A DNA stretch of 64,000 bases from positions 286,868 through 350,867 of the forward strand of contig NZ_CP059563.1 of NCBI RefSeq assembly GCF_014054725.1, given 5' to 3'. This stretch comes from Conchiformibius steedae (GTDB lineage Bacteria > Pseudomonadota > Gammaproteobacteria > Burkholderiales > Neisseriaceae). How positions within the stretch are numbered: the first letter of the stretch is position 1; the number at the start of each line of letters is the position of its first letter. The position numbers and the translations under genes are program-made. The notes under the pieces are model-generated. The model searched no databases and was not told where the DNA came from. It was given only the letters and a program-made list of their open reading frames with translations. Shown here one piece after another: positions 35,860 to 54,083 of this stretch.

Positions 35860-36402
35860 TCACAGTTTTTCCACCTGCCCAAATTCCAACTCAACAGGAG
35901 TTTCGCGCCCAAAAATTTGCACGGTAACACGCAGTTTGTTGCGCTCGTAATCCACAAACTCCACCGCACCGTTGAAATCGGCAAAAGGTCCTTCGTTTAC
36001 ACGGACTTGCTGTCCCACTTCAAATTCTACACGCGGTTTGGGTTTTTTCTCGCCACTTGCACCGCCACCCACCTGTGCCATAATATTGTCCACTTCGCGT
36101 TGCGAAATCGGCAAAGGACGGTGCGCAGTACCGCCGATAAAGCCGTTGATGCGCGGGGTACTTTTTACCAGATGCCACGAACTGTCGGTCATTTCCATTT
36201 CAATCAGCACATAACCCGGAAAAAACTTGCGCTCGGCAACGGTTTTACGTCCGTTTTTAATATCCACCACTTCTTCAACAGGCACCAAAATCTGCCCGAA
36301 ATAATCTTCCATGCCTTCACGGGCAATGCGCTCTTTCAAGGTTTTTTGTACATTTTTTTCAAAACCAGAATAAGCCTGTACCACATACCAACGTTTCGAC
36401 AT
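35860..36402 (-). CDS. nusG: transcription elongation/antitermination factor NusG
   Basis: NusG (180 aa) links RNA polymerase to Rho or to S10 of the ribosome. The NGN domain begins [26 protein letters not shown] and includes [12 protein letters not shown]; the C-terminal KOW motif is [25 protein letters not shown] (about 126-150). It lies two bases after secE. Confidence 0.98.
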
Positions 36403-36404
36403 TC

Positions 36405-36788
36405 TTAACCTTTCAACAAAACGGCGTTAAACAGCAGACTGATTAAAGTGTCCACACCATAAATAAACACGGCAAATACCGCCACAAACAACACCACAAA
36501 CATGGTCATGCGTACCGCATCGGGGCGTTTGGGCCAAACTACTTTTTTGACTTCGGCAGTGGATTCTTTAATATAGCGCAACAGATTGCGCCCCATATCA
36601 CACCAAAAAAACACAATCAGCAGCGCAATCAGCACCCCGCCAATCGGAAAAACCAAATTGGTATAAGGAGGCAAACCTTTTACGCCGTCATACGCCCACA
36701 CGCCCCCGCCTACAAATGCGGCAGCAATCAATAATTTAAACGTATCTGCGCCTTTATTGGTGTTTTGTTGCGGCATTTCATGATTCAT
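36405..36788 (-). CDS. secE: preprotein translocase subunit SecE
   Basis: SecE (127 aa) stabilises SecY in the Sec translocon. Three membrane segments near residues 18-37, 44-61 and 94-120; the conserved cytoplasmic helix and hinge [25 protein letters not shown] (about 70-94) precede the last one. The start ATG at 36788 has AAGGA seven bases upstream. The three-segment form is typical of proteobacteria. Confidence 0.96.
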
Positions 36789-36814
36789 TTGAATTCCTTT
36801 CAATACCATACGAT

Positions 36815-36850
36815 AAAAAACTAACCGGTTGTTAGACCGGTTAGTTTTTT
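36815..36850. terminator. terminator between tRNA-Trp and secE
   Basis: AAAAAACTAACCGG and CCGGTTAGTTTTTT make a perfect 14-bp stem with an 8-base loop and a T-run on the minus strand. It would separate the tRNA-tuf transcript from secE-nusG, so secE needs its own promoter in the 26 bases downstream, or readthrough. Confidence 0.8.
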
Positions 36851-36855
36851 CTATT

Positions 36856-36931
36856 TGGCAGGCCAGGAGGGTCTCGAACCCCCAACCCTCGGTTTTGGAG
36901 ACCGATACTCTACCAATTGAGCTACTGGCCT
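36856..36931 (-). tRNA. tRNA-Trp (CCA anticodon)
   Basis: A 76-base cloverleaf with acceptor AGGCCAG/CTGGCCT, D arm GCTC..GAGT, anticodon loop reading CTCCAAA (anticodon CCA), T arm GGGGTTCGAGACCCT, and 3' CCA encoded. It lies just after tuf, the common beta-proteobacterial position before secE. Confidence 0.96.
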
Positions 36932-36938
36932 CTAAAAC

Positions 36939-38123
<1,185 letters not shown>

Positions 38124-38168
38124 GGCAAAATATCCTTGTAAAAACAGTAAAATCGGAAAAAAGAGATA

Positions 38169-38243
<75 letters not shown>

Positions 38244-38254
38244 CTAAAAGTTTG

Positions 38255-38328
38255 TGGAGCGGGTGAAGGGAATCGAACCCTCACCGTAAGCTTGGAAGGC
38301 TTCTGCTCTACCATTGAGCTACACCCGC
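38255..38328 (-). tRNA. tRNA-Gly (TCC anticodon)
   Basis: Acceptor GCGGGTG/CACCCGC, D arm GCTCAATGGTAGAGC, anticodon loop CTTCCAA (anticodon TCC), T arm GAGGGTTCGATTCCCTT and encoded CCA. The outermost anticodon-stem pair looks mismatched. Confidence 0.94.
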
Positions 38329-38360
38329 AACTTAATCTCTACACTCCAACTGGGGAAATC

Positions 38361-38444
38361 TGGTGGTGGGAGAAGGATTCGAACCTTCGAAGCTTACGCG
38401 GCAGATTTACAGTCTGCTCCCTTTGACCGCTCGGGAATCCCACC
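38361..38444 (-). tRNA. tRNA-Tyr (GTA anticodon)
   Basis: An 84-base class II tRNA with long variable arm: acceptor GGTGGGA/TCCCACC, anticodon stem-loop GCAGACTGTAAATCTGC (GTA), T arm GAAGGTTCGAATCCTTC and encoded CCA. It heads the tRNA-tuf transcript. Confidence 0.96.
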
Positions 38445-38459
38445 GAAAAGAGAAACGAA

Positions 38460-38489
38460 ACTATAACGCTTCCCGCATAGGCTTGTCAA
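38460..38489 (-). promoter_or_regulatory. promoter of the tRNA-Tyr-Gly-Thr-tuf unit
   Basis: On the minus strand a perfect TTGACA (38484-38489) and TATAGT (38460-38465) are 18 bases apart, 16 bases before tRNA-Tyr. It is one of the best promoters in the window, as expected for a stable-RNA operon. Confidence 0.8.
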
Positions 38490-38550
38490 ACAAAATTGGT
38501 GCTTGGTGTGTGTGTTTTTTCCAAGTCAATTATTTTTCGGATTTTTATTT

Positions 38551-38829
<279 letters not shown>

Positions 38830-39093
38830 TTATTATAGCATGTTTTACCGATACGTCTGCATGGAAAGTTTTTAGTTAAGATATTGAGTATAATTATTTT
38901 TTACAAACAAACAGCCCATTGGTAAAACGCTGCGCGGACACAAATACAACAAAACAGGGGTTTTGTCCCGTTATGGCTTGACGGACAACGCACCCTGCCA
39001 TCATTTTCATGGTATAGTCTTTATCAGGAACTGTCCGATGCCATCAGGCGCGGCAGACCGATTTTGAGAACTGTTTTTTTTGAATGGAATACC

Positions 39094-39711
39094 ATGAAGC
39101 AATTACATAAAGTGATGATTGCCGCAGCGGGTATGCTGATGGCAGGCACGGTAGCCGCCGAAAACGGCGCGGGTTTTTATGTTCAAGGCGATGTGGGCTT
39201 GGCAAACCTGAACACCAACACCGAAAAATTTAAGGTCAAAAACACCTTTAAAAGCCTGAAAAACTCTTATAAAGAGTCGGGTTTTATGCCCCGCATCAGC
39301 GCAGGCTACGATTTTGGCAACAATTTGCGCGTGGCAGGCGATTACACCCATTACAAAGATGCCGACAATTCGGCACGGGAAGGCGACACCAGCCTGCACG
39401 TTAAAACCCAAGCCCGCAGCATGGGGGTTTCTGCCGTTTACGATTTTCCGATTGAAGGCACGGCAATCAAGCCTTATGCGGGTGCTCGGGTGGGTTTGAA
39501 CAAAACCAAATTGCAGGCACGTTTGCAAAACGGCGGCAATACCCAAAGCTCGTCTGACAGCAAAACCAAAGTAGGCATGGGCGTATTACTGGGTGCCAGC
39601 TACGAAATCAGCCCGAATATTTCTACCGATGTGGGCTACCGCTACAACCACATGGGTTCGGAAATCAAGGCACATGAAGTCACAGCAGGTGTGCGCTACA
39701 CCTTCCGTTAA
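39094..39711 (+). CDS. Opa-like outer membrane beta-barrel protein
   Basis: A 205-aa outer membrane protein of the opacity/NspA type. Signal peptide MKQLHKVMIAAAGMLMAGTVAA (cleavage AAA-E-like, near residue 23), then alternating beta strands such as GFYVQGDVGLANL, MPRISAGYDFGNNLRVAGDYTHY and VGMGVLLGASYEISPNISTDVGYRYN, ending in the outer-membrane signature VTAGVRYTFR with terminal aromatic. Length fits an eight-stranded barrel. No pentamer repeat of the neisserial opa phase-variation type is present; a run of eight Ts lies 13 bases before the ATG. In Neisseria such proteins bind host receptors; here the function is unknown. Confidence 0.88.
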   Translation: MKQLHKVMIAAAGMLMAGTVAAENGAGFYVQGDVGLANLNTNTEKFKVKNTFKSLKNSYKESGFMPRISAGYDFGNNLRVAGDYTHYKDADNSAREGDTSLHVKTQARSMGVSAVYDFPIEGTAIKPYAGARVGLNKTKLQARLQNGGNTQSSSDSKTKVGMGVLLGASYEISPNISTDVGYRYNHMGSEIKAHEVTAGVRYTFR

Positions 39712-39736
39712 CATATAGATTTTAATCAATAAAAAA

Positions 39737-39766
39737 AACAGCACCTTGTTTCAATAAGGTGCTGTT
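39737..39766. terminator. bidirectional terminator between the Opa-like gene and glmS
   Basis: AACAGCACCTT and AAGGTGCTGTT (11 bp) around an 8-base loop, with an A-run before and T-rich after, between convergent genes. Confidence 0.85.
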
Positions 39767-39785
39767 TGGTTTTGACGGCTTGCGT

Positions 39786-41627
39786 TTATTCTACGGTAAC
39801 GGATTTTGCCAGATTGCGCGGTTTATCAACATCCGTACCGCGTGCCAATGCAGCATGATAAGACAGCAACTGCACGGGAACGGTATGGATAATCGGCGAT
39901 AACGCCCCTGTATGGCGCGGGGTGCGAATCAGATGGATTTCGTCTGTGGCTTCAAAATGGCTGTCCAAATCGGTAAACACAAACAATTCGCCACCGCGTG
40001 CGCCTACTTCCTGCATATTGGCTTTGACTTTGTCCAACAGGGCATCGTTGGGGGCAATCACGACAACAGGCATATTTTCATCTACCAATGCCAAAGGTCC
40101 GTGTTTTAATTCACCGGCAGGATAGGCTTCGGCGTGAATATAGGTGATTTCTTTGAGTTTGAGCGCGCCTTCCAAGGCAATCGGGTAATGAATCCCACGC
40201 CCTAAAAACAAGGCACTGCTTTTTTTGGCAAATTTTTGCGCCCATGCGGCGATTTGCGGTTCAAGGTTTAAAGCGTGTTGAATACTGCCCGGAAGTTGGC
40301 GCAGTTCTTCGGTGTAGGTGTGTTCCTGCTCTGTGGAAACGCTGCCGCGCAGTTTCCCCAAAGTAACGGCTAATCCAAACAAAACAACCAATTGTGTGGT
40401 AAAGGCTTTAGTGGAAGCCACGCCGATTTCCGCACCTGCACGGGTATAAAGCACCAAACTGCTGGCACGGGGCAGGGCAGATTCCATTACGTTGCAAATG
40501 GACAGTGAATGGCGGTTGCCTAAAGATTGGGCGTATTTAAGCGCTTCCATGGTGTCAAGCGTTTCTCCCGATTGGGAAATGGTTACCACCAATTGTTGCG
40601 GGTCAGCAATCACGTCGCGGTAACGGTATTCGCTGGCAATTTCTACATCGGTAGGGATTTTGGCAATGGATTCCAGCCAGTATTTGGCGGTCAGCGCGGC
40701 ATAGTGAGACGTACCACACGCCAGAATTTTAATGCTGTTGATGTTTTGGAACACTTCGCGGGCAGTTTCGCCAAAGTTTTCAGGCTCAAATCCGCCGTCT
40801 AAAAACACTTCGGCGGTGCTGGCAACGGCTTGGGGCTGCTCGTGGATTTCTTTTTGCATAAAGTGGCTGTACGGTCCCAACTCCAGCGATGCCAAGGATA
40901 AGGCAGAAGTTTTCACGGGGCGTTCAACGGCATTGCCGTTTTTGTCTGCCAATTTTACGATGCCTGTGGCGTTTAATAATCCGATGTCGCCGTCTTCCAA
41001 ATAGGCGATGTGGCGGGTAAAGGCAATCACGGCAGACACATCGGAAGCGATAAAGGTTTCGTTTTCGCCAAATGCCACCAGCAGCGGACACCCCATGCGG
41101 GCAACTGCCATGTATTCGGGCTGGTCGGCGGCAATCACGCCAATGGCATACGCGCCGTGAAAGCGCGCACAAGCGGCTTGCACGGCAGCAAACAAATCTC
41201 TGCCATTATGGATGTATTCATAATGCACGCTGTGGGCGATAACTTCGGTATCGGTTTGCGATTCAAACACATAGCCCAATGCTTGCAAACGGCTGCGCTC
41301 GGACTCAAAGTTTTCGATAATGCCGTTATGCACCACAGCAATCAGTTGGTCGGAAATATGCGGGTGGGCGTTGGGTTCGGTAACACCGCCATGCGTTGCC
41401 CAACGGGTGTGTCCAATGCCTGTTTGTCCGCGCAAGTTTTGTTCCTGTGCGGCTTGGCGCATATTGGCAACACGCCCGACACGGCGCACACGCTCAATGC
41501 CGTTGGCGGTATGCACGGCAATACCCGATGAATCGTAACCGCGGTATTCCAAGCGTTGCAGTCCGTCTGTTAAAAAATCAACCACATTATTTTCGGGTGC
41601 GCGTACCGCACCGACAATTCCGCACAT
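39786..41627 (-). CDS. glmS: glutamine--fructose-6-phosphate aminotransferase (isomerizing)
   Basis: GlmS (613 aa) makes glucosamine-6-phosphate from fructose-6-phosphate and glutamine, the first step to UDP-GlcNAc. The amidase nucleophile Cys follows Met1 (MCGIVGAV). Two SIS domains (about 290-420 and 460-600) include [16 protein letters not shown] and the C-terminal [12 protein letters not shown] with the catalytic Lys. glmU, which acts later in the pathway, is at 55111 rather than adjacent. No ribozyme leader is evident. Confidence 0.98.
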
Positions 41628-41705
41628 AATGCTATTCCTTACAATAAGCGAAACAGGGGCGCAGTCGCCCCATTAAAATAGGATGTCGGGAATTGTAACA
41701 GAATA

Positions 41706-42593
41706 TCACGCTGCCTGACGCATCGCCTGCGCCGCTGCCACTACACCCGTACCGAACAGCGCATCGGCATCGGCTTCATCAAAGGTATAGCGTTCATTAC
41801 AAAAATCGCAATCCACGCTAATGCTGCCTTCTTCAGCCACCACTTCGCCCACTTCTTTACAGCCCAGCAGCAACAGCATATCCGCCACTTTTCCACGCGA
41901 ACAGCTACAGGCAAATTCCAAGGCTTCGGCAGGAAACACACGCGGCGGATGTTCATGAAACAAACGGTACAGCAAAGCATCGGCAGGCAAACCGCTCAAT
42001 TCTTCCGCCGATAAAGTTTGTGCGGGCAACGCCACTTGCGCCCACGCTTCATCATCGGCTTCGCTTTCGGGCAAACGTTGCAGCAAAAATCCGCATGCCT
42101 GTTGTTCATCGGCACTCAATACGATATGGGTTTGAATTTGTTGGGAACGCTGCATATAGTCTGCCAACATCGCCGCAATACCACCACTGTGCAAAGGCAC
42201 AATGCCCTGCCACGGCTCGCCGTTGCGCGGTTGCACGGTAATGGCAAATATCCCTTCCCCACCCAATAATTGATGCAAATCCGCATCATCGGCAACGGCG
42301 ACACTTTCGTCCCAACGTGCCGTGGCGCGACACGTTCCACTCACAGCCTCTGCCACCAGCATTTTCAACACGCCTTTGCCCTGCACCTGAATGGTTAAAG
42401 TGTGGTCAGATTTTAAATCTTCGGACAACAAGGCTGCAGCAGCCAACACTTCCCCCAAAGCGCGGCGGATGGCTGGCGGATAGTTTTTGCGTTGCAGAAT
42501 GTGTTGCCACACTTCGCTTAAACGCACATACAAACCGCGTGCAGGGTGTTCGTCAAATAAAAAACGGCTACGGTAATCGGAATCGGCATTCAT
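41706..42593 (-). CDS. hslO: 33 kDa chaperonin Hsp33 (redox-activated)
   Basis: Hsp33 (295 aa) is a cytoplasmic holdase switched on by oxidation. The C-terminal zinc switch is visible as CSCSRGK (about residues 230-236) and CDFCNERY (about 263-270), the CxC..CxxC pattern. N-terminal DYRSRFLFDEHPARGLYVRL is typical. It lies 77 bases after murB on the same strand and may be co-transcribed with it. Confidence 0.95.
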   Translation of the reverse strand: MNADSDYRSRFLFDEHPARGLYVRLSEVWQHILQRKNYPPAIRRALGEVLAAAALLSEDLKSDHTLTIQVQGKGVLKMLVAEAVSGTCRATARWDESVAVADDADLHQLLGGEGIFAITVQPRNGEPWQGIVPLHSGGIAAMLADYMQRSQQIQTHIVLSADEQQACGFLLQRLPESEADDEAWAQVALPAQTLSAEELSGLPADALLYRLFHEHPPRVFPAEALEFACSCSRGKVADMLLLLGCKEVGEVVAEEGSISVDCDFCNERYTFDEADADALFGTGVVAAAQAMRQAA

Positions 42594-42670
42594 GCTGTGA
42601 AATCCTTTCTTTCAATTTTAAACATCACCGCAAAATAATGCCGAAACGCCATAATGCAAGGGCAAAGCAT

Positions 42671-43696
42671 TTATAGAATATTCGGTTCAGGCACCAACAC
42701 CACCCCAAAACGCTGCAAAACTTCTTCGCAGACCATTTGCGACAATGCCAAAACGTCTGCTGCACTTGCCTTGCCATCACGGTTAATCAACACCAATGCC
42801 TGTTTGTCGTGTACCGCTGCACCGCCAATCTGCTTGCCTTTTAATCCACAACGCTCAATCAGCCAACCCGCTGCCAGTTTTACCGTTCCATCGGGCTGCG
42901 GATAAACGGGCATATCGCCATATTGTTCGCGCAAACGCTGGGCGTGCGCCGCATCTACCACAGGATTTTTATAAAAACTGCCTACATTGCCCGTTGCATC
43001 GGGATTAGGCAATTTACTGCGGCGGATTTGGCACACCGCTGCCGATACATCTGCTGCGGTGGCTTCGCGTTCCCCGCAGTTTTGCGCCAACACCGCCGCC
43101 AAATCGCCATAACCTACCCGCGCCTGAAACACTGTATCCAGCACAAAACCCACCGCCACAATCACATAACGCCCTTTACCAGCCTGTTTAAACAGGCTTT
43201 CGCGGTAGGCAAACGCACACTCGTCCCGCTGCAAACGCACAAATTCGCGGCTGTCTAAATCAAAACAATCCACATAATCAATGCGGTCTTTTACTTCCAC
43301 GCCATACGCACCGATATTTTGCACAGGCGCAGCGCCCACCGTCCCTGGAATCAGGCTTAAGTTTTCCAAACCGCTTAAACCCGCGTTTACCGTATATTGC
43401 ACAAAATCATGCCACACTTCGCCTGCCTGCACTGCCAAACGCACCTGTGCGCCATCGCGGGCGTATTCGCGAATACCTTTATTTGCCATCTGCACCACCA
43501 AGCCCTGATGGTCGCGGCTAAATAAAATATTGCTGCCCCCACCCAACCACAGCACCGTGTCGCGCCGAAACTGTGGCAAAACACAAATTTCAGGCAATTC
43601 TGAAGCATGGTTTAACACGCAAAAATACGCAGCGCGGGCAGGCAGATGAAAAGTAGAACAGCCCGATAAATCATAATCAGAAAAAACGGCAACCAT
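42671..43696 (-). CDS. murB: UDP-N-acetylenolpyruvoylglucosamine reductase
   Basis: MurB (341 aa) reduces UDP-GlcNAc-enolpyruvate to UDP-MurNAc with FAD and NADPH. Motifs: LGGGSNILF (FAD binding), GLSGLENLSLIPGTVGAAPVQNIGAYG (about 100-126), catalytic region RRSKLPNPDATGNVGSFYKNP with the active-site Ser, and the C-terminal Glu in VLVPEPNIL. Type I MurB. The start at 43696 has AGGGGG upstream; the earlier in-frame codon does not. Confidence 0.97.
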   Translation of the reverse strand: MVAVFSDYDLSGCSTFHLPARAAYFCVLNHASELPEICVLPQFRRDTVLWLGGGSNILFSRDHQGLVVQMANKGIREYARDGAQVRLAVQAGEVWHDFVQYTVNAGLSGLENLSLIPGTVGAAPVQNIGAYGVEVKDRIDYVDCFDLDSREFVRLQRDECAFAYRESLFKQAGKGRYVIVAVGFVLDTVFQARVGYGDLAAVLAQNCGEREATAADVSAAVCQIRRSKLPNPDATGNVGSFYKNPVVDAAHAQRLREQYGDMPVYPQPDGTVKLAAGWLIERCGLKGKQIGGAAVHDKQALVLINRDGKASAADVLALSQMVCEEVLQRFGVVLVPEPNIL

Positions 43697-43723
43697 AAAT
43701 CCCCCTACGGACAAACAAAAACA

Positions 43724-43765
43724 GATTATCCCATCTGCACCCGATACGGTACAGACGGGATAATC
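43724..43765 (-). terminator. hairpin between the 43798 lipoprotein gene and murB
   Basis: GATTATCCC-A-TCTG and CAGA-C-GGGATAATC pair with one mismatch. It follows the lipoprotein stop by about 30 bases. A clear T-run is lacking, so efficiency is uncertain. Confidence 0.5.
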
Positions 43766-43797
43766 ATTTACAGTTTAATGCGTTTTACAGCAGGGGT

Positions 43798-45006
43798 TTA
43801 TTTTTCTTGGGCTGCGCCAAATGTGCCGTAGCTGCTGCCGTAAATATAAGCACCTGTCATCTCTTCAGCATTATCGCCGTGGAACGTGCCTTCCATTGTT
43901 GCAGCCACTTTACCTGCTGCTGTTGCTGCCGAATCCAATCCACCAAAACGGTACAGTTCCGTATCGCTTCCATCGGGTTTTTTACCAAATGTACCTTTCA
44001 GATTAATTTTAAAATCAGGATTATTCTCATCCGTAATGCTTCCCACCACTGTTCTATTGCCAAAACTTACCACAAATTCAGATTGCACGGGAATGGGTTT
44101 TTCTGCCAAAGTAGCTTTTACCCCTTCTTGCGCCAGCTTCACATGACGGCGGGCATCCGACAAATCACTGACGGCAGTCCGTACCGCACTTTGTGCTTCA
44201 TCGTATTTGGCTTGTGCTTCGCTGCTGCCACCTGAATTCGCCAATTCCGTACGGGCTTTTTCACGGTTTTCAGTAGCGGTTTTTAATTTTGCTTCGGCAG
44301 CAGTCAGATTGGTATTCGCCACACCGGCAACCGCAGCGGCATTAAAATACGGAAGTGCTTCAAAATGTAAGCCTTTACCTTTATATTTAATTTCTTTATC
44401 GTGCGCATCTTTACCAAGCGCTTCAATTTTTTCTACAGGTGTTGCCTTACCTACGGTAAACACATGGCGTTTTTCGTATTCGTCATATACCTCGCCATAA
44501 CGGGCATGCTTCAGATGCGTGCCAATCATGCGCCATGAGTTACTGGGGTTTTGATGGTAGGGTGCAGTACTGGTACCCGTATAGATTTTTTCGTTGCTGC
44601 CCGAATAAAATCCATCTTCTTTACCATCTGACGCATCATTTTTGCCTGTGGGAATCAGCAAAATGGAACGTCCATCAATCTCCAATGTGCTGATGTCTTT
44701 CATTTTCCAATCGGTTTGTTCAGAGACAAATTTACCGCTGTCTTTGGAAGTGGGATTCACATCCAGCGAACCGTACAAACCAAATAGAGTTTCTGATGTA
44801 ACGGTATTGTTGGCTGCAGAAGAACCACCTGATGAAGAACCGCCACTGCTACTGCTGCTACTGCCCGAACCGCCTGATGAAGCACCTCCGCTGCCTGTTC
44901 CGCCACCGCTACCGGTAACAATCGTACCGCTGCCGCCACCACCGCTGCCGCAGGCTGCCAATCCGAATACTGCCGTTACCAATACGGCGGTCAATTTTTT
45001 ATCCAT
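43798..45006 (-). CDS. TbpB-like surface lipoprotein with helical insertion
   Basis: A 402-aa lipoprotein (lipobox LAAC, Cys19). A low-complexity Gly/Ser tether of about 45 residues follows the Cys. The rest is beta-rich, and the end, MEGTFHGDNAEEMTGAYIYGSSYGTFGAAQ, matches the closing beta-barrel motif of TbpB-like (Slam-dependent) lipoproteins, which are displayed on the cell surface and bind host iron or haem proteins. About residues 229-303 are instead helical and charged (LTAAEAKLKTATENREKARTEL.., SEAQAKYDEAQSAVRTAV..), an apparent coiled-coil insertion in the beta domain. AAGGAG precedes the ATG at 45006. No partner receptor or Slam gene is nearby. Ligand unknown. Confidence 0.8.
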   Translation of the reverse strand: MDKKLTAVLVTAVFGLAACGSGGGGSGTIVTGSGGGTGSGGASSGGSGSSSSSSGGSSSGGSSAANNTVTSETLFGLYGSLDVNPTSKDSGKFVSEQTDWKMKDISTLEIDGRSILLIPTGKNDASDGKEDGFYSGSNEKIYTGTSTAPYHQNPSNSWRMIGTHLKHARYGEVYDEYEKRHVFTVGKATPVEKIEALGKDAHDKEIKYKGKGLHFEALPYFNAAAVAGVANTNLTAAEAKLKTATENREKARTELANSGGSSEAQAKYDEAQSAVRTAVSDLSDARRHVKLAQEGVKATLAEKPIPVQSEFVVSFGNRTVVGSITDENNPDFKINLKGTFGKKPDGSDTELYRFGGLDSAATAAGKVAATMEGTFHGDNAEEMTGAYIYGSSYGTFGAAQEK

Positions 45007-45159
45007 ACTGCACACTCCTTAAAGTTTTTGTTTGGGAAGCCGCTGTAACGGCCTTGCGAAATGTTGCCGATTCTAACACAGCTGGTTTGTTGTAAAGCAT
45101 TTTTTGCACACGCTGCACCGCAAACGGGCAGGGTTGTTGCGTTTGCGGCGCAACAGCGT

Positions 45160-46035
45160 TTACTGCTGTGCGTAACGTTGCAGCAGTTCGCGGAAAGCTG
45201 CGCCCGTTTCGGGGTGTTTCAAACCATACGCCAAGGTGGCTTCCAAATAACCGATTTTGCTGCCGCAGTCGTAACGCGTGCCGTTAAAAGCATGCGCCAA
45301 CACAGGTTCGTATTCCAATAATTTGGCAATACCGTCCGTTAATTGGATTTCGTTGCCTGCGCCGCGCTCCAAGTTTGCCAACAGTTCAAAAATACGCGGG
45401 GTTAAAATATAACGCCCCACCACCGCCAAATTAGACGGCGCATCTTCGGGCTTGGGTTTTTCCACAATGCTGCGGATGCGTTGAAAATCCTGCCAATCAT
45501 GGGTTTCCACAATACCGTAAGACGCGGTTTGGCTGGGTTCAACCGTTTCCACACCCAACACGCTTGCGCCCGTTGCCTGATACACGTCCACCATCTGTTT
45601 TAATGCACCCTGTGGCGCATCAATCAAATCATCTGCCAAAATCACGGCAAAGGGTTCGTTATTCACCGCTGCTTTGGCACACAATACCGCATGCCCCAAG
45701 CCTAAAGCTTCTGCCTGACGGATATACAGACAGGTAATGCCTGCGGGCAAGACGTTTTGCACGGTATTCAGCAAAGCGTGTTTTTCGCGCAATGCCAATT
45801 CGGTTTCCAGCTCGTAAGCCTTGTCAAAGTGGTCTTCAATGCTGCGCTTGCTGCGCCCCGTCACAAAAATAATTTCATCACAACCTGCTGCCACGGCTTC
45901 TTCTACGGCGTATTGAATCAGGGGTTTGTCCACAATTGGCAACATTTCTTTGGGACTGGCTTTGGTAGCTGGCAAAAAACGGGTTCCCATTCCGGCTACG
46001 GGAAATACGGCTTTTTTAATGGCGCGGTGCTGCAT
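45160..46035 (-). CDS. galU: UTP--glucose-1-phosphate uridylyltransferase
   Basis: GalU (291 aa) makes UDP-glucose for surface polysaccharide and LOS synthesis. It starts with the nucleotide-binding loop [25 protein letters not shown] (about residues 11-35) and carries the conserved [20 protein letters not shown] segment near residue 190. Family length. It is divergent from bfd. Confidence 0.97.
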
Positions 46036-46187
46036 ATTCTGTCTTCCTAAACAAAAAATGTGATTGTACCAGCATTACTTGCCACAACAAAAATCCGCCA
46101 CCTGCTTGCGATTACAAATAAACAGTATTATCATTACGCACACACCAAATCTCTAAACCGACACACCATCGGGGAAAGGAAAACGCT

Positions 46188-46394
46188 ATGTATGTTTGCA
46201 TTTGCAATGCGGTTACCGACCGCCAAATTCAAGATACCGTTGCTGCGGGCGCGTCTTCGTTAAACGATTTGCAAGACAGCCTAGGCGTGGCAAGCTGTTG
46301 TGGCTGTTGCGCCGATTTGGCAAGCTCGTTTTTAAATGCTGCCAATGGTGCAGGACAAAACGTCAATCACATCAGTTGCGCCGAAGCTGCGTAA
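46188..46394 (+). CDS. bfd: bacterioferritin-associated ferredoxin-like protein
   Basis: A 68-aa [2Fe-2S] protein. Cluster ligands C4-x-C6 and C38-x2-C41 match the Bfd pattern; two extra Cys (37 and 40) give an unusual CCGCC. Bfd reduces iron cores in bacterioferritin to release iron. AGGAAA lies before the ATG. The upstream region contains ATTATCATTA, which resembles half of a Fur site, but a full operator is not evident. No bfr gene is adjacent. Confidence 0.9.
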   Translation: MYVCICNAVTDRQIQDTVAAGASSLNDLQDSLGVASCCGCCADLASSFLNAANGAGQNVNHISCAEAA

Positions 46395-46408
46395 TTTCAG
46401 AATAGCCA

Positions 46409-46440
46409 AAACCCCGTATGTGTTTCATCATACGGGGTTT
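46409..46440. terminator. bidirectional terminator between bfd and ileS
   Basis: AAACCCCGTATG and CATACGGGGTTT, a perfect 12-bp stem with an 8-base loop, followed by GTTT. Serves convergent genes. Confidence 0.85.
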
Positions 46441-46457
46441 GTTTATCCAATCAAGCT

Positions 46458-49238
46458 TTAGGCATAATCGCGCTGTTCGCCCTGTCCGCCCAAATTATCG
46501 GCGCAACGTCCGCACAGTTCGGGATAATCGGCGTTTTCACCGATATCCGCTACATAATGCCAACAACGCGGGCATTTTTCGGCATGGCTGGGCGATACCT
46601 GCGCTGTCAGCTCTGTTCCTTCCTGCAAACTTACTTGCGACACCAGCAACACAAAACGCAGTTCTTCTCCCAAGGCTTCCAATGCGGCGAAATACGGCTC
46701 GGGCGCAGTCAGCACCACTTCCGCCTGCAAAGACGAACCGATGGTTTTGTCGGCACGCAAAGGCTCAATCGCCGCATTGACAGCAGCACGGGCTTCACGC
46801 ACGGCAGTCCATTTGTTCAACAATTCCATTTCGCTGGCTGCGGGCATAGACGGAAAATCATGCAAAGTATGATACAGCACGCTGTCGTCTTCGCCGCCGC
46901 CAATCAGTTCCCATGCTTCTTCGGCGGTAAAGCATAAAATCGGCGACAGCAGCAGCACCAAGCTGCGGGTAATGTGATACAGCGCAGTTTGTGCGGAACG
47001 GCGGGCATGTCCGTCCGCTTTGGTGGTGTACAGACGGTCTTTCAACACGTCCAAATAAAACGCACCCAAGTCTTCCGAACAGAAATGCACAATGTCCTTA
47101 ACCGCCAAATGGAAGGCATAACGCGGATAGTGTTCGCCCGCCACTTTTTCTTGCAGCTTACGCGCCAACACCAGCGCATAACGGTCCATTTCCACCATAT
47201 CGGCTTGCGGAACGGCGTGTTCAATGGGGCTAAAATCGGTTAAGTTGGCAAACAGAAAGCTCAAAGTATTGCGGATACGGCGGTAGGATTCGGTAACGCG
47301 CTTCAAGATTTCTTTGGAAATTGCCAATTCGCCCGAATAATCGGTTGCCGCCGTCCACAGGCGCAAAATATCCGCGCCAAATTCGTTATACACTTCTTGC
47401 GGCGCAACCACATTGCCGATGGATTTGGACATTTTGCGTCCGTTTTGGTCCACCACAAAACCATGCGTTAACAGCTGTTTGTACGGCGCACGCCCTAAAG
47501 TGGCACAGCCTGTCAGCATGGACGATTGAAACCAACCACGGTGCTGGTCGCTGCCTTCCAAATACAAATCGGCGGGCCAAGCCAGTTCTTCACGTTGTTT
47601 TAATACGGAAAAATGGGTGCTGCCTGAATCAAACCACACGTCCATGGTATCGGGCAGTTTGTCGTATTGTTCGCAATCTTCGGGCGACAACAGCTCGGCT
47701 TTATCCAATTCAAACCAAGCGTTAATCCCTTTTTGCTCGATTTTTTGCGCGACTTTTTCCAATAAATCGGCGGAATCGGGGTGCAACTCGCCCGTTTCTT
47801 TGTGGGCGAAAAAGGTCATCGGCGTACCCCAATAACGCTGGCGCGACACCACCCAGTCGGGGCGGTCTTCAATCATCGCCTGCAAACGGGCACGTCCCCA
47901 TGCGGGGAAAAATTCGGTATCGTCCACCGCTTTTAAGGCGGTATTGCGCAAGGTTTTACCTGCCACGCCTGCCTTGTCCATGCCGATAAACCATTGCGGG
48001 GTCGCGCGGTAAATCAGCGGGGTTTTGTGCCGCCAACAGTGGGCGTAGCTGTGTTCAATCTTGGCATTGGACAGCAACACTTGATTTTCTGCCAACCAAT
48101 CAATAATCACGGGATTGGCTTCCCACACGCTTAATCCGCCCACGCGTTCCACAGACGGAAAATAACGCCCTTGCGCGTCCACAGGGTTATACAGGGTAAT
48201 ACCATATTTCAAGCAGACAAAATAGTCTTCCAAACCATGTGCGGGTGCAGTATGTACCAAACCCGTACCCGCATCGGTGGTCACATGCTCACCGTTTAAA
48301 ACGGGAATATCGCGTTTTAAGAAGGGGTGGGCGAACAACAGGTTTTCCAGTTTCGCGCCTGTGGTTTCCGCCAAAACAGGGCTTTCGGCAAATCCGTAAC
48401 GCGCCAACGCGGCTTCTGCCAAATCTTTTGCCAGTACCAGCTTGCCTTTGGGGGTGTCAATCAGTTGGTAAACAATGTCCGCACCGGCGGAAACGGCTTG
48501 GCTGGCGGGCAAAGTCCACGGTGTGGTCGTCCAAATCACGGCAAAGGCAGCGCCGATGTCCTGATTCAAACCAAAGGCTTTTGCCAGTGCTGCGCTGTCT
48601 TGAGCAGGATACATCACATCAATGGCGTGGGACACCTTGTCTTTGTATTCCACTTCGGCTTCAGCGAGGGAAGAGGCGCAGTTTAAACAGTATTGCACAG
48701 GCTTTTCGCCACGGTACAGATAACCTGCTTTGTAGATTTCGCCCAGAGTACGCACGGTGTCAGCTTCGGTGCGGTAATCCATCGTCAGATAAGGCTTATC
48801 CCAATCGCCAATCACGCCCAAACGGATAAAGTCTTTTTTCTGACGGGCGATTTGTTCGGCGGCGTATTCGCGGCACAGTTCGCGGAACTTGGCATCGGGC
48901 ATGTCTTTGCTGTGCAGTTTTTCCACCATTACTTCAATCGGCAAGCCGTGGCAGTCCCAACCCGGTACATAGGGCGCGTCAAAACCCGCCAAGGTTTTAC
49001 TGCGGATAATAATGTCTTTTAAGATTTTATTGACGGCGTGTCCGATGTGGATGTCGCCATTGGCATAGGGCGGACCATCGTGCAAAATAAATTTGGGACG
49101 CCCTGCGGCTTTTTCGCGCAGCTTGTGATAACGCTGCTGTTGTTGCCACTGCGCCACCCATGCGGGTTCGCGCTTGGCAAGGTTGCCGCGCATGGGAAAG
49201 GGCGATTCGTACAGATTGACTTGCTGATTGTTACTCAT
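46458..49238 (-). CDS. ileS: isoleucyl-tRNA synthetase
   Basis: IleRS (926 aa), class I synthetase with editing domain. HIGH motif in [17 protein letters not shown] (about residues 55-71), KMSKS in [11 protein letters not shown] (about 600), and the C-terminal zinc ribbon [24 protein letters not shown]. The bacterial housekeeping type; mupirocin-resistance features were not assessed. It follows the purine permease on the same strand at a distance of 34 bases, a plausible two-gene unit. Confidence 0.98.
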
Positions 49239-49272
49239 AATAGTGTGTTCCCAAAAATAAAATTAAACGGCA

Positions 49273-50613
49273 TTACGCGCCCAAAAACCAAAATTTTGCC
49301 AGCCAGCACAGTGCCACTACCCACACCATCACGGGTACTTCGCGATGACGCGCACACAGCAGTTTGATTGCTGCATAGCTGATAAAGCCCATGGCAATAC
49401 CGTCAGCAATAGAATAGGTAAACGGCATAAACGCCATGGTTAAAAAGGCAGGCGCGGCTTCGGTTAGGTCGTCCCAATCGATTTCAGTAGCAGAACGCAT
49501 CATCTGCACGCCGATATACAGCAGCGCGGGCGCAGTGGCAAACGCAGGCACCAATTTTGCCAAAGGCGAAAACCACAAACACGCCAGCATCAGCACGCCC
49601 ACGGTAACGGCAGTCAAACCCGTGCGCCCGCCCGCCGCCACGCCTGTCGCGCTTTCAATATAGGGCGTGGTGGAAGACGTACCCAATGCCGCGCCTGCCA
49701 CAATCGCAGTGGAATCGGCAAACAAGGCTTTTTTCAAACGCGGCAGTTTGCCGTTTTCCAACAAGCCCGCACGGTGCGACACGCCCACCAGCGTGCCCGT
49801 GCTGTCAAACAAATCCACCAGAAAAAACACAAACACCACCGCAATCAGGCTTCCGTTGAGCAAACCCGAAAAATCCATCTGCATCAGCGTAGGGGCAAGC
49901 GACGGCGGCGGCGCAACAATGCCTTCAAATTTTGCCAAACCCAAAGGCAGCGACAGCAGCGTAACCGCCGCGATGCCGATAATCATTGCCCCGCGCACTT
50001 TAAAATAATCCAGCGCCACCGTAACAAACAAACCCAACAACACCAGCCACACCGTCCAATTCGGGCTTTTGACACCATTATCACCCACACTATACAGCTG
50101 ACCCATTTTCACAAAAGTGGTTTCGCTTGCCACAATCAAGCCTGCGTTTTTCAGCGCAATCAACGCCAAAAACAAACCAATGCCCGCCGCAATGGCCATT
50201 TTCAAACCCATAGGCAGCGCATTAACCAGCATTTCGCGTATTTTAAAAAAGCTGAACAGGATAAAAATCACGCCCGACACAAACACCGCCGCCAACGCCA
50301 CCTGCCACGATACGCCCATGCCCAATACCACCGAATAGGTGAAATACGCATTCAAACCCATACCGGGGGCAAGCGCAATCGGATAGTTTGCCAGCAAGCC
50401 CATCACAAAACAGCCAATGGCAGCAGAAATACAGGTTGCCACAAATACCGCGCCAAAATCCATACCTGTATTAGACAAAATCAGCGGATTGACAATCACG
50501 ATGTAACACATCGTTAAAAAAGTGGTTAATCCCGCCAGCAGTTCGGTGCGGATGCTGGTGTGATGTTCAGACAGCCGAAACAGGCGTTCGACAAGTGGCT
50601 GGGGTGCTTCCAT
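49273..50613 (-). CDS. NCS2-family purine permease (AzgA-like)
   Basis: Inner-membrane nucleobase:proton symporter (446 aa, about 12-14 segments). Family motifs: GLTTFLTMCYIVIVNPLIL, ALAPGMGLNAYFTYSVV (about 80-96), FVFFLVDLFDSTGTLVGV (about 260-278) and TSSTTPYIESATGVAAGGRTGLTAV (about 315-340). These mark the AzgA/GhxP branch that imports adenine, guanine or hypoxanthine. No purine riboswitch is seen upstream. Confidence 0.93.
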   Translation of the reverse strand: MEAPQPLVERLFRLSEHHTSIRTELLAGLTTFLTMCYIVIVNPLILSNTGMDFGAVFVATCISAAIGCFVMGLLANYPIALAPGMGLNAYFTYSVVLGMGVSWQVALAAVFVSGVIFILFSFFKIREMLVNALPMGLKMAIAAGIGLFLALIALKNAGLIVASETTFVKMGQLYSVGDNGVKSPNWTVWLVLLGLFVTVALDYFKVRGAMIIGIAAVTLLSLPLGLAKFEGIVAPPPSLAPTLMQMDFSGLLNGSLIAVVFVFFLVDLFDSTGTLVGVSHRAGLLENGKLPRLKKALFADSTAIVAGAALGTSSTTPYIESATGVAAGGRTGLTAVTVGVLMLACLWFSPLAKLVPAFATAPALLYIGVQMMRSATEIDWDDLTEAAPAFLTMAFMPFTYSIADGIAMGFISYAAIKLLCARHREVPVMVWVVALCWLAKFWFLGA

Positions 50614-50698
50614 AACAAATCCGAAACAAAGCTACAAAATCGGATTATAACAATTTTCTACACGCCTAATGGCGCAACATGGGAAAACAGGCAGAGAA

Positions 50699-50742
50699 AA
50701 GCGCAAAAACAAAATCTTTCCGATGGTTTTGTTTTTGCGCTT
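50699..50742 (-). terminator. terminator after the DUF218 gene
   Basis: AAGCGCAAAAACAAAA and TTTTGTTTTTGCGCTT form a perfect 16-bp stem with a 12-base loop just past the stop of the 50751 gene. Confidence 0.8.
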
Positions 50743-50750
50743 ATATGATA

Positions 50751-51371
50751 TTAAGCCGCCACGCCCAGCCATTTGCCTAACTGCCACAGCCGAAACAGGC
50801 TTAAATACAGGGTTTCGCGGATAAAAAAATCATCGGCTTGGCTGCTTTCAGCATAACGGCTGCTGGGGGTAGCGGAATAAGCGGCGGTGATGCCCAAATC
50901 TTCTGCCATGGCACGGGCACGCGCCATGTGGGCGGGGTCGCTGATAATGATAATGCTGCCGATTTTGTGGCGGCGCATCAGCTGACGGGTGTTTTTCAGA
51001 TTTTCATAGGTATTGCGCGACAACGGCTCGATTAAAATATCGCGCTCGGGTACGCCTTGTTTTTGGGCAAAACGTTTGCCTACTTCGGCTTCGGTGGGAT
51101 AACCTGCTTTGGGCGTGCCACCCGTAAACACCAGCTTGCGTACCGTGCCGTTGCGGTACAGGTCTATGCCGTGAACAATGCGTTCGCGGAACACGGGGGA
51201 AGGTTTGTTGCCCCACGCTGCCGCGCCCAAAATCACCGCAGCATCGGCTTTGACACGGGCAGCAGAATAGGCATCGCGGCGCACCTGCCACATACTCACG
51301 CAGCCCAACAACACCGCCGCCAACACCAGCAGCAGGCTTATTCCCAAACAAAAATTAAATATTCTTTTCAT
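50751..51371 (-). CDS. DUF218 (YdcF/SanA-type) membrane-anchored protein
   Basis: A 206-aa protein with one N-terminal membrane segment (about residues 8-28) and a DUF218 domain: ADAAVILGAAAWGNKPSPVFRERIVHGIDLY, VFTGGTPKAGYPTEAEVGKRFA, SRNTYENLKNTRQLM and IIISDPAHMARARAMAEDLG. This is the SanA branch, linked in E. coli to envelope barrier function. The ATG at 51371 (MKRIFNFCLG) was chosen because it gives a normal membrane anchor; a longer TTG start is possible. Confidence 0.88.
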   Translation of the reverse strand: MKRIFNFCLGISLLLVLAAVLLGCVSMWQVRRDAYSAARVKADAAVILGAAAWGNKPSPVFRERIVHGIDLYRNGTVRKLVFTGGTPKAGYPTEAEVGKRFAQKQGVPERDILIEPLSRNTYENLKNTRQLMRRHKIGSIIIISDPAHMARARAMAEDLGITAAYSATPSSRYAESSQADDFFIRETLYLSLFRLWQLGKWLGVAA

Positions 51372-51522
51372 AGATAACGGCTTGCTGCATACGGAATCCA
51401 CCGCAACCGTAAACCGCAATTTATCCTAAACGGGTAAATAAAGTGTTTATTTTAACCGCGATTGGCGTGGTTCGGTCAATAACTTGGCTATAATCTGCCA
51501 TTATTTAGCCAAAGTACAACGC

Positions 51523-52200
51523 ATGACTGCTTATACCGTCCGTCCCATTGCTTATGTCCGTTCGCCCTACACGCAAAAATTCGGCATTCCGCGCCAGCCG
51601 CAGTTGGTGCCTGCCGCCCGTGCCGATATTGTGTTTGAAGCCGATTTTCCTGCCGACTGCGTACGCGGTTTGGAACAGTTTGGCTGCGTGTGGGTGCAAT
51701 TTGTGTTCCACGATGCCCTGAATGAAGGCTGGCAGACCACCGTGCGTCCGCCGCGTTTGGGCGGAAAAGCCAAAATGGGCGTGTTTGCCACGCGCAGCCC
51801 GCACCGTCCCAATCATTTGGGTTTGTCGCTGCTGGTGTTGGACAGCATCGGCAACGAAAACGGGCGCATAGTGCTGCATTGCAGTGGCGCAGATTTATTG
51901 GATGGTACGCCCGTGTTAGATGTGAAACCCTATATCCCTTTTGTGGAAGCCCGTGCCGATGCCGCTGCCGGTTTTGCCCCCGCACCGCCGCCGCGTTTGG
52001 CGGTGTGTTGGCTGGATACGCCCCCACCCGAACCCGTCCGCGCCCTGATTGAACAAAGCCTGTCGCAAGACCCCCGCCCCGCCTACCACCACGACCCCCA
52101 ACGCCGCTATCGTGCCGTGATGGCACAATGGGAAACCACCTTCCGCATCGCCGAACACACCGTTATCATCGAAAGCTGCCAAACACTTCAGTCAAACTGA
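51523..52200 (+). CDS. trmO: tRNA m6t6A37 methyltransferase TrmO
   Basis: TrmO (225 aa, formerly TsaA/YaeB) methylates t6A at position 37 of tRNA-Thr using SAM. N-terminal beta-barrel domain VRPIAYVRSPYTQKFGIPRQPQLVP (about residues 4-28), VFATRSPHRPNHLGLS (about 87-102) and DLLDGTPVLDVKPYIPF (about 126-142) are the family motifs. Start MTAYTVRP at 51523 matches the family. It stands divergent from the DUF218 gene, with TATAAT at 51490-51495. Confidence 0.94.
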   Translation: MTAYTVRPIAYVRSPYTQKFGIPRQPQLVPAARADIVFEADFPADCVRGLEQFGCVWVQFVFHDALNEGWQTTVRPPRLGGKAKMGVFATRSPHRPNHLGLSLLVLDSIGNENGRIVLHCSGADLLDGTPVLDVKPYIPFVEARADAAAGFAPAPPPRLAVCWLDTPPPEPVRALIEQSLSQDPRPAYHHDPQRRYRAVMAQWETTFRIAEHTVIIESCQTLQSN

Positions 52201-52280
52201 TGTCCGCCATACAAAAAACCGATTAGTCCGCGCCGCCGCCTTGCCCCACAATCCCCTTTTTCCCTAACGCAAAGCCCATC

Positions 52281-54083
52281 ATGCAAGCATTTGATTTCTC
52301 GTGCGCCCCTTTCAGCTACCTCAGCCCGCAAGAGCGCCTGCGCGTGCAACAGTCCATCAACATCGCCTATTACAACAACCACGAAACCATTATTGCCGCC
52401 AAAGCCCCGATAGAATTTCTGTATGTGGTACTGAAAGGGCTGGTTCGCGAAACAGGCAACGACGGCGAAGTTTTGTCGCTGTACCACCCCCACGACACCT
52501 TTGAAGCACGCGGATTGCTGGAGGGTTCGTGCGAATACCCCTTTATCGCCGAAGAACAAACACTGGTTTACACCATTCCCAAAGCCGTGATACAGGAAAT
52601 CATCGCTGCCAATCCCCGTTTTGCTGCTTACTGCTATGCCAGCGTTGCCGACAAATTCGCCAGCTTGGCACAAATCAAAAACGAAAGCGAATTTGAAAGC
52701 CTGTTTACCGCCAAAGTGCGCGATGCCTACCACCCCGACCCCGCATGGTTAGACGGCGATGCCAGCGTTTTAGACGCCGCCCAAACCATGAAAACCCGCA
52801 AAACCAAATCCCTGCTGGTGCGCCATCAGGACAAAGTGGGCGTACTGACCGAATCGTTTTTCCGCGATATGCTGATTAACGGCACACCTGCCGATACCCG
52901 TGTTGGCGACGTGGCGACTTACGCACTCATCAGCACCGATATTGACGATTTTGTGTTTACCGCACTGCTACAAATGATGCGCCACCGCATTCAGCGCGTG
53001 GTCGTTACCGAGCAGGGCAAGCCTGTCGGCACATTGGAACAGATTGATGTATTGGCGTATTTTTCCAATCACAGCCATTTAATCGCCCAACGCCTTGACC
53101 GCGCTTCCGATATTGACGAACTGGTGGAACTGGCCAATCAGATGACCCGTTCCATTCAATTATTGCGCAACAACGGCGTACGCGCCCCACAATTGGCACA
53201 ACTGATGCAAGTGTTAAACACAGGTTTATTTGAAAAAGTGTGGCGCATTATCGCCCCTGAAGCCCTCTACCGCGAATCCTGCCTGATTGTGATGGGTTCG
53301 GAAGGGCGCGGCGAACAAATTTTAAAAACCGACCAAGACAACGCCCTGATTATCCGCCGCGCCGAAGATGCCGAAATGGCACAAGCCGCCGCCGAGCAGT
53401 TTTCCGCCACCCTTGCCCGTTTGGGCTATCCGCCTTGCGCGGGCAACATCATGGTCAGCAATCCCGATTGGCGCAAACCCCTGCCCGAATTTAAAGACAC
53501 CGTATTGGGCTGGTGTCGTTCGCCCTCGCCCGCTGCCATGATGAACTTGGCGATTTTTATTGATGCCAAAGTGGTGGCAGGCGATGCCACACTATTAAGC
53601 GAAGTCAAAGACCACCTGTACCGCCATATGGTTAATGATGCGGGTATGTTGATGGGCTTTGCGCGTGCTGTTGAGCAATTTGACAGCCACAGCCACGGTT
53701 TTTTCGCACAACTGTTGCACCGTCAGCCCGAACGTTTGGACATCAAAAAAATGGGACAGTTCCCGATTGTTCACGGCATCCGTGCTTTGAGCTTGGAAGC
53801 GCGTTTGGAAGAAACCAATACCTTTGAGCGCATTCACAAGTTAGTGCAATTAAATGTTTTAAATGAAAGTTTGGGGCGCGACATTGCCGAAGCCTTGGGC
53901 TATTTGATGGATTTGCGCCTGAAAGCGAATTTGGCGATTTTTTCAGGGCAAACCCAACACCAGCCCAACCAATTGGATTTTAAAGATTTATCCACTTTGG
54001 AACGCGATTTGTTAAAAGATGCGCTGGCAGTGGTCAAACGCTTTAAGGGTGTGATTCGCCATCATTTTCATTTAAATGCCTGA
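52281..54083 (+). CDS. cNMP-binding/CBS/DUF294 nucleotidyltransferase-like protein
   Basis: A 600-aa cytoplasmic protein of four parts: a cyclic-nucleotide-binding-like domain (about 10-135), a CBS pair (about 155-275), a DUF294 nucleotidyltransferase domain with GSEGRGEQILKTDQDNALI (about 350-369, the GS..DxD pattern of the pol beta fold), and a C-terminal helical DUF294 domain. This resembles the N-terminal part of GlnD. The signal sensed and the target are unknown. It is followed 12 bases later by a DnaQ-like exonuclease, a neighbour also seen in other proteobacteria. Confidence 0.88.
   Translation: MQAFDFSCAPFSYLSPQERLRVQQSINIAYYNNHETIIAAKAPIEFLYVVLKGLVRETGNDGEVLSLYHPHDTFEARGLLEGSCEYPFIAEEQTLVYTIPKAVIQEIIAANPRFAAYCYASVADKFASLAQIKNESEFESLFTAKVRDAYHPDPAWLDGDASVLDAAQTMKTRKTKSLLVRHQDKVGVLTESFFRDMLINGTPADTRVGDVATYALISTDIDDFVFTALLQMMRHRIQRVVVTEQGKPVGTLEQIDVLAYFSNHSHLIAQRLDRASDIDELVELANQMTRSIQLLRNNGVRAPQLAQLMQVLNTGLFEKVWRIIAPEALYRESCLIVMGSEGRGEQILKTDQDNALIIRRAEDAEMAQAAAEQFSATLARLGYPPCAGNIMVSNPDWRKPLPEFKDTVLGWCRSPSPAAMMNLAIFIDAKVVAGDATLLSEVKDHLYRHMVNDAGMLMGFARAVEQFDSHSHGFFAQLLHRQPERLDIKKMGQFPIVHGIRALSLEARLEETNTFERIHKLVQLNVLNESLGRDIAEALGYLMDLRLKANLAIFSGQTQHQPNQLDFKDLSTLERDLLKDALAVVKRFKGVIRHHFHLNA

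Follow-up and report, generated by a model that had tools for sequence, protein, structure and literature searches.

TbpB-type lipoproteins customarily carry anchor peptides, as stated in parts of PMC4475390 and PMC12080921. PmSLP-1, as described in the latter's available part, consists of a handle and a barrel with two short loop helices and binds complement factor I, and the same source proposes that the barrel is the signal for Slam, with ligand and function set by the N-terminal domain and the loops. According to parts of PMC12282271, T11SS cargo barrels are decorated with loops that contain disordered segments, strands, and alpha-helices, and helix-bearing barrel loops may carry function; the legend of its Fig. 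8 places an alpha-helix in a barrel loop of five predicted cargo proteins from marine Rhodobacteraceae/Roseobacteraceae loci. The literature match for TbpB, coiled-coil, Slam, and lipoprotein combined was PMC5472700. In the literature searched, a helical hairpin with TbpB and lipoprotein gave no match, and titles and abstract openings revealed nothing on topic for T11SS with coiled-coil and no Conchiformibius surface lipoproteins. The available part of the main text of PMC5449769 contained none of the words "helical," "coiled," Conchiformibius, or Alysiella.

The window is the whole 64,000-nucleotide stretch of Conchiformibius steedae DNA presented above, from a genome of 2.2 Mb in 3 contigs. 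Conchiformibius is an inhabitant of animal mouths. The initial annotation placed a TbpB-like lipoprotein at 43798-45006; these coordinates were correct, and the strand, which it did not give, is minus. The open frame, read from the sequence, runs from 45006 to 43798 on that strand and encodes 402 residues plus a stop, and frame 1 of the plus strand shows several stops across the same interval. The start codon is the ATG at 45006-45004; a longer alternative start, GTG at 45015, shares one base with the AGGAG site. The ortholog group among 83 Neisseriaceae genomes (the own genome included) comprises three proteins: that of the window, one from the MAG Conchiformibius sp. S35M_Sa_14 (G001), of the same genus, and one from Alysiella crassa. 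The features of the gene and its surroundings are the following:

43798..45006, minus strand: complete gene of a putative surface lipoprotein (open frame, ATG at 45006)
45015..45019, minus strand: likely ribosome binding site AGGAG, 8 bases 5' of the ATG (direct reading of the sequence)
44953..45006, minus strand: signal peptide, residues 1-18, ending in the lipobox LAA-C (direct reading of the sequence)
44950..44952, minus strand: Cys19, expected lipidation site (invariant in 3/3 orthologs in the alignment)
44818..44949, minus strand: Gly/Ser-rich tether, residues 20-63 (44 residues; sequence composition)
44395..44817, minus strand: N-terminal region, residues 64-204, at the position of a handle domain (conserved in the ortholog alignment; fold left open by the model)
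44362..44394, minus strand: barrel strand 1, residues 205-215, with the KYKG motif (strand 139-149 of a low-confidence model and family alignment)
44104..44343, minus strand: extra helical stretch, residues 222-301, in the loop between strands 1 and 2 (missing from both orthologs in the alignment)
44236..44340, minus strand: predicted hairpin helix 1, residues 223-257 (AlphaFold2)
44113..44223, minus strand: predicted hairpin helix 2, residues 262-298 (AlphaFold2; last dozen residues not confident)
43801..44094, minus strand: remaining C-terminal barrel, residues 305-402 (Pfam TbpB_B_D at 298-399; profile match to solved TbpB barrels)
43724..43765, minus strand: terminator-like stem of 18 pairs with a T tail, between the lipoprotein gene and murB (pattern scan)

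The terminator-like pattern occurred at 2 sites in the region versus 2.5 in shuffled sequences, so that the count is uninformative and the long stem is the sole support for this feature. On the minus strand, the same pattern scan of the region gave no site resembling a promoter. The lipobox reported in the initial annotation was read in the sequence as LAAC with Cys19. Its tether of about 45 Gly/Ser residues corresponds to residues 20-63, and G or S makes up 84% of the 45 residues following Cys19. This tether was the richest in Gly/Ser among 82 distinct post-Cys stretches (median of 24%), in a comparison that applied a lipobox pattern to 109 sampled ORFs, dropped the 24 without a match, and picked a point ahead of the true Cys in at least three ORFs (L032, L033, and L036). 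The tethers of both orthologs differ from it in composition in the alignment. The suggestion that repeats of Ser codons could change the tether length found little support, since the tether DNA holds only one 9-base repeat unit, in 2.1 copies; whole-codon repeats could alter this length but never the reading frame.

The TbpB-type C-terminal barrel of the initial annotation was recovered by Pfam. The model TbpB_B_D (PF01298) matched residues 298-399 with 33.9 bits (E = 5e-8), above its cut-off of 26 bits, and the match covers profile positions 27-125 only, because the extra stretch separates strand 1 from the rest. Both orthologs scored higher on this domain (70.0 and 67.3 bits), and a profile of the three orthologs matched solved TbpB chains (best E value of 2.3e-15). 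The NCBIfam model of Slam-dependent surface lipoproteins (NF041636, slam_lipo) gave 24.2 bits, far under its 80-bit cut-off; the orthologs (48.1 and 69.8 bits) and a paralog of the own genome (60.9 bits) also stayed below it. FHBP_C (factor H binding protein) was not passed either (18.3 bits; cut-off, 28.1). With one barrel stretch in 402 residues, the protein differs from TbpB proper, which has two lobes, each with a handle and a barrel, and goes with TbpA. The wider definition of Slam/T11SS cargo (lipobox, barrel, and Slam in the genome) fits through Cys19, the PF01298 match, and four PF04575 proteins. The protein most likely belongs with the surface lipoproteins of the TbpB/Slam-cargo type, as a new variant with a two-helix arm in a barrel loop.

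The search for Slam homologs proposed with the initial annotation yielded these four PF04575 (Slam-type) proteins, all over the cut-off, and 0 of 14 control genomes had any. The own genome also encodes 13 TbpB_B_D domains over the cut-off, in 11 reading frames, that of the window included, and the Conchiformibius MAG showed five PF04575 matches, two of them adjoining on one contig. No Slam gene is adjacent to the lipoprotein gene, the nearest PF04575 match being about 31 kb away; a Slam gene next to its cargo is common, not obligatory. Elsewhere in the own genome (contig C3, 361-404 kb), TbpB_B_D proteins at 361, 371, and 393 kb have three PF04575 genes in their vicinity (363, 372, and 404 kb). 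A 287-residue paralog (L017, 946-1809; C3 near 1578 kb) has the same order of parts, no helical stretch, and a His/Asn-rich tether.

Across the 83 genomes, the ortholog profile matched three proteins over the full length of the profile with 480 to 564 bits, these being the same three used to build it, and the next best match had 46 bits. The contig scan with the window protein as single query gave no relative, and that with the three-row alignment gave two. The plasmid search produced no match, and the class-wide search of 369 genomes had matches in 8, the own genome included. The neighbors of the lipoprotein gene in the window encode MurB, IleS, and a nucleotidyl transferase that looks like GalU. 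The order murB, lipoprotein, ileS is common to the window and the Conchiformibius MAG, in which a frame of TetR-like appearance takes the place of the window's galU-like gene; the Alysiella crassa ortholog has different neighbor genes. Positions 39064-39711 of the window (plus strand) encode an outer membrane barrel protein of the Opacity family (PF02462, E = 7.9e-32, with the scan beginning at 39106). Visual inspection of the ORFs listed for 36000-53000 of the window, 3.1 kb of the MAG contig, and 12.9 kb of the Alysiella contig showed no TonB-receptor gene beside the lipoprotein gene. Between window and MAG, the identity is about 78% for IleS (over the C-terminal 140-151 residues) and about 60% for MurB (over 196 residues), and the lipoproteins share 32% and 27% in two BLASTP pieces, or 36% over the MAFFT columns. 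The identity of the lipoproteins is thus far under that of IleS and MurB, which is the pattern of a fast-diversifying surface protein. On these comparisons, the gene is a settled and fast-changing resident of the murB-ileS locus in the genus.

The N-terminal region (residues 64-204) is conserved with the orthologs in the alignment, and the 309-residue MAG protein and the Alysiella protein both lack residues 222-301. The distance from the strand 1 motif (KYKG) to the strand 2 motif (FVVSFGNRTVVG) is 100 residues in the window protein, 24 in Alysiella crassa, and 29 in the Conchiformibius MAG. For Alysiella, the absence rests on the alignment because the structure model of this ortholog had a mean pLDDT of 29.5. 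The most plausible reading of the arm, drawn from three proteins, is a gain in the lineage of the window protein, with loss in the other two as the alternative. Its GC3 (0.41) is within that of the rest of the gene (0.35 to 0.46; five other window genes, 0.50 to 0.58), and its overall GC content is 0.525, versus 0.417 and 0.446 in the flanking parts. Since GC3 does not differ and the 20 Ala codons explain some of the excess, we did not count the stretch as foreign. No donor was found among the matches listed by protein or by DNA in the 83 family genomes. At the protein level, 15 genomes besides the own matched the stretch at E ≤ 0.1, and the best match (9e-4), a 97-residue frame, was taken for chance. 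At the DNA level, 80 of the 83 genomes matched at E ≤ 1, apart from the own gene only in short pieces (best non-own match, E = 0.0016 over 23 bases, among the matches listed).

The initial annotation had described some 75 mid-protein residues as helical, charged, and heptad-like, and structure prediction, the check that it proposed, agreed on the first point. From a three-row alignment, AlphaFold2 predicted two helices (residues 223-257 and 262-298), with pLDDT of 70 to 95 in blocks spanning residues 227-286. Confidence was low at the outer ends, in the opening residues of helix 1 (block mean of 40) and the final dozen of helix 2 (block means of 56 and then 37). The model was poor as a whole (mean pLDDT of 44.3 and pTM of 0.30, with nearly everything outside the helices below 50), and it does not fix the seating of the hairpin on the barrel. 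K, R, D, and E account for 21 of the 80 residues of the stretch, and Ala for 20. The heptads held for helix 2 only: its hydrophobic moment exceeded that of shuffled sequences (P about 0.02, uncorrected and with helix boundaries set by us), with Ala, Val, Leu, and Tyr at the a/d positions, and no heptad signal over shuffles was found in helix 1 (P about 0.82) or the whole stretch (P about 0.26). Helicity is well supported, the coiled coil less so, and the position of the arm within the barrel is one read from sequence alone. At 1.5 Å per residue, a straight hairpin would measure about 5 nm. A Foldseek search with the model gave no PDB match at E ≤ 0.001; the top matches, mainly efflux adaptor proteins, were taken as matched through their helices. 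The single-sequence search of the PDB had 22 matches at E ≤ 1, 21 in the Gly/Ser stretch and one over the helical part (apolipophorin-III, E = 0.27). FliJ (Pfam, stretch alone; 16.2 bits, below the cut-off of 28.4) and a PgrA-type match (17.5 bits; 70 required) were taken as coiled-coil likeness.

We compared the loop with those of other family members. An HMM built from a paralog and the two orthologs without the arm delineated 141 barrel domains in 109 ORFs from 159 sequences. One domain without a motif column was dropped; the other 140 include genes represented more than once because their loci overlap. At 100 residues, the window protein had the longest of the 122 distinct strand 1-2 loops (range, 12 to 100; median, 26.5; next longest, 82, 68, and 66), in a sample that is no census and holds the better-scoring part of the family matches listed plus loci from other searches. 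Like the window protein, first barrels of the sampled two-barrel ORFs have long strand 1-2 loops, mostly of 46 to 82 residues, with shorter ones in L049 (34) and in the repeat-bearing L032, L033, and L036 (41). The second-longest loop (82 residues) belongs to the first barrel of a two-barrel TbpB-like ORF (L046, genome G075) and contains a charged run that is helix-like by its letters. L032, L033, and L036 (genomes G030, G093, and G081) are lipoprotein-like ORFs that have two barrels and carry AKKAEE repeats close to the N terminus, not in the barrel. The earlier view that a helical arm is unusual for this family thus stands in part: the arm is rare in the sample and missing in both orthologs, but not foreign to the family, given the variable loop length, the charged loop of L046, and the loop helices reported in parts of PMC12282271.

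We read the protein, with the anatomy listed above, as a surface lipoprotein of the TbpB/fHbp superfamily and cargo of a Slam-type system (T11SS), with a probability of about 0.7. After export by Sec and lipidation on Cys19, it would reach the outer membrane, where one of the four Slam-like proteins would flip it to the cell surface. The Gly/Ser tether would space the handle-like N-terminal region and a barrel of presumably eight strands from the membrane, and the hairpin in the strand 1-2 loop may be an added contact surface for a host protein. That no TonB-receptor gene was seen alongside in the stretches listed mildly favors binding of a host regulator, as by fHbp or PmSLP-1, over nutrient piracy. 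The slam_lipo score below the cut-off, together with a Slam dependence that is only presumed, would be compatible with a plain periplasmic lipoprotein whose domain is barrel-like; the four Slam-type proteins of the genome speak against this. To our knowledge, the characterized TbpB_B_D proteins are surface or secreted cargo. TbpB_B_D is also treated as a cargo domain in parts of PMC12282271, and a periplasmic location seems very improbable.

For the hairpin itself, contact with a host protein is our tentative preference, held at slightly under even odds, the rest being shared by loop expansion and self-association. The hairpin could be a neutral or antigenically variable expansion of the loop that binds no ligand itself; binding would then fall to the barrel and the N-terminal region, and the arm would only shield or decorate. 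The wide range of loop lengths in the sample, the absence of the arm from both orthologs, and third codon positions that mark no separate module all agree with this explanation and make it a real possibility, but Pro-free helices of 35 and 37 residues would be hard to keep without selection, and the heptad pattern of helix 2 also speaks against it. Two-helix hairpins can pack as four-helix bundles, and the Ala, Val, Leu, and Tyr residues at the a/d positions of helix 2 would suit lipoprotein dimers or bundles at the cell surface; both helices can nevertheless satisfy each other inside one chain, and we regard self-association as unlikely. A bolder extension of the host-contact reading, with the strand 1-2 loop as an insertion site for whole helical modules and the rigid arm alone binding the host ligand, is doubtful; ligand binding through an inserted helical arm in a Slam-cargo barrel was not found described in the literature searched.

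The arm shows how far the elaboration of barrel loops in Slam cargo extends within one genus, and orthologs with and without it at the same locus offer a natural comparison. If it binds a ligand, a loop insertion would be tied to a change of specificity in a family of vaccine antigens and iron-piracy proteins.

The window protein has the lipoprotein nature, the anchor peptide, and the C-terminal barrel in common with TbpB and differs from it in having one barrel instead of two lobes, a helical hairpin in a loop, and no TbpA-like receptor gene alongside (by eye, among the ORFs listed). With the Slam-dependent (T11SS) single-barrel proteins PmSLP-1, hemophilins, and fHbp it shares the order of lipobox, tether, N-terminal region, and barrel; it stays below the slam_lipo and FHBP_C cut-offs, and the available parts of the sources mention no helical hairpin in the barrels of these proteins. 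The Pls-like cargo of PMC12282271 (in part) also has a long charged helical stretch, but its repeats, which the AKKAEE repeats of L032, L033, and L036 resemble, precede the handle. The T11SS cargo of Rhodobacteraceae/Roseobacteraceae shares the alpha-helix in a barrel loop, with one helix, as far as the same partial source goes, where the window protein has a hairpin. Since helices in cargo barrel loops are already in print there, the arm is an extreme version, specific to this lineage, of a variable loop already known; this kind of feature is known, and as far as our literature searches go, its size and two-helix form are new.
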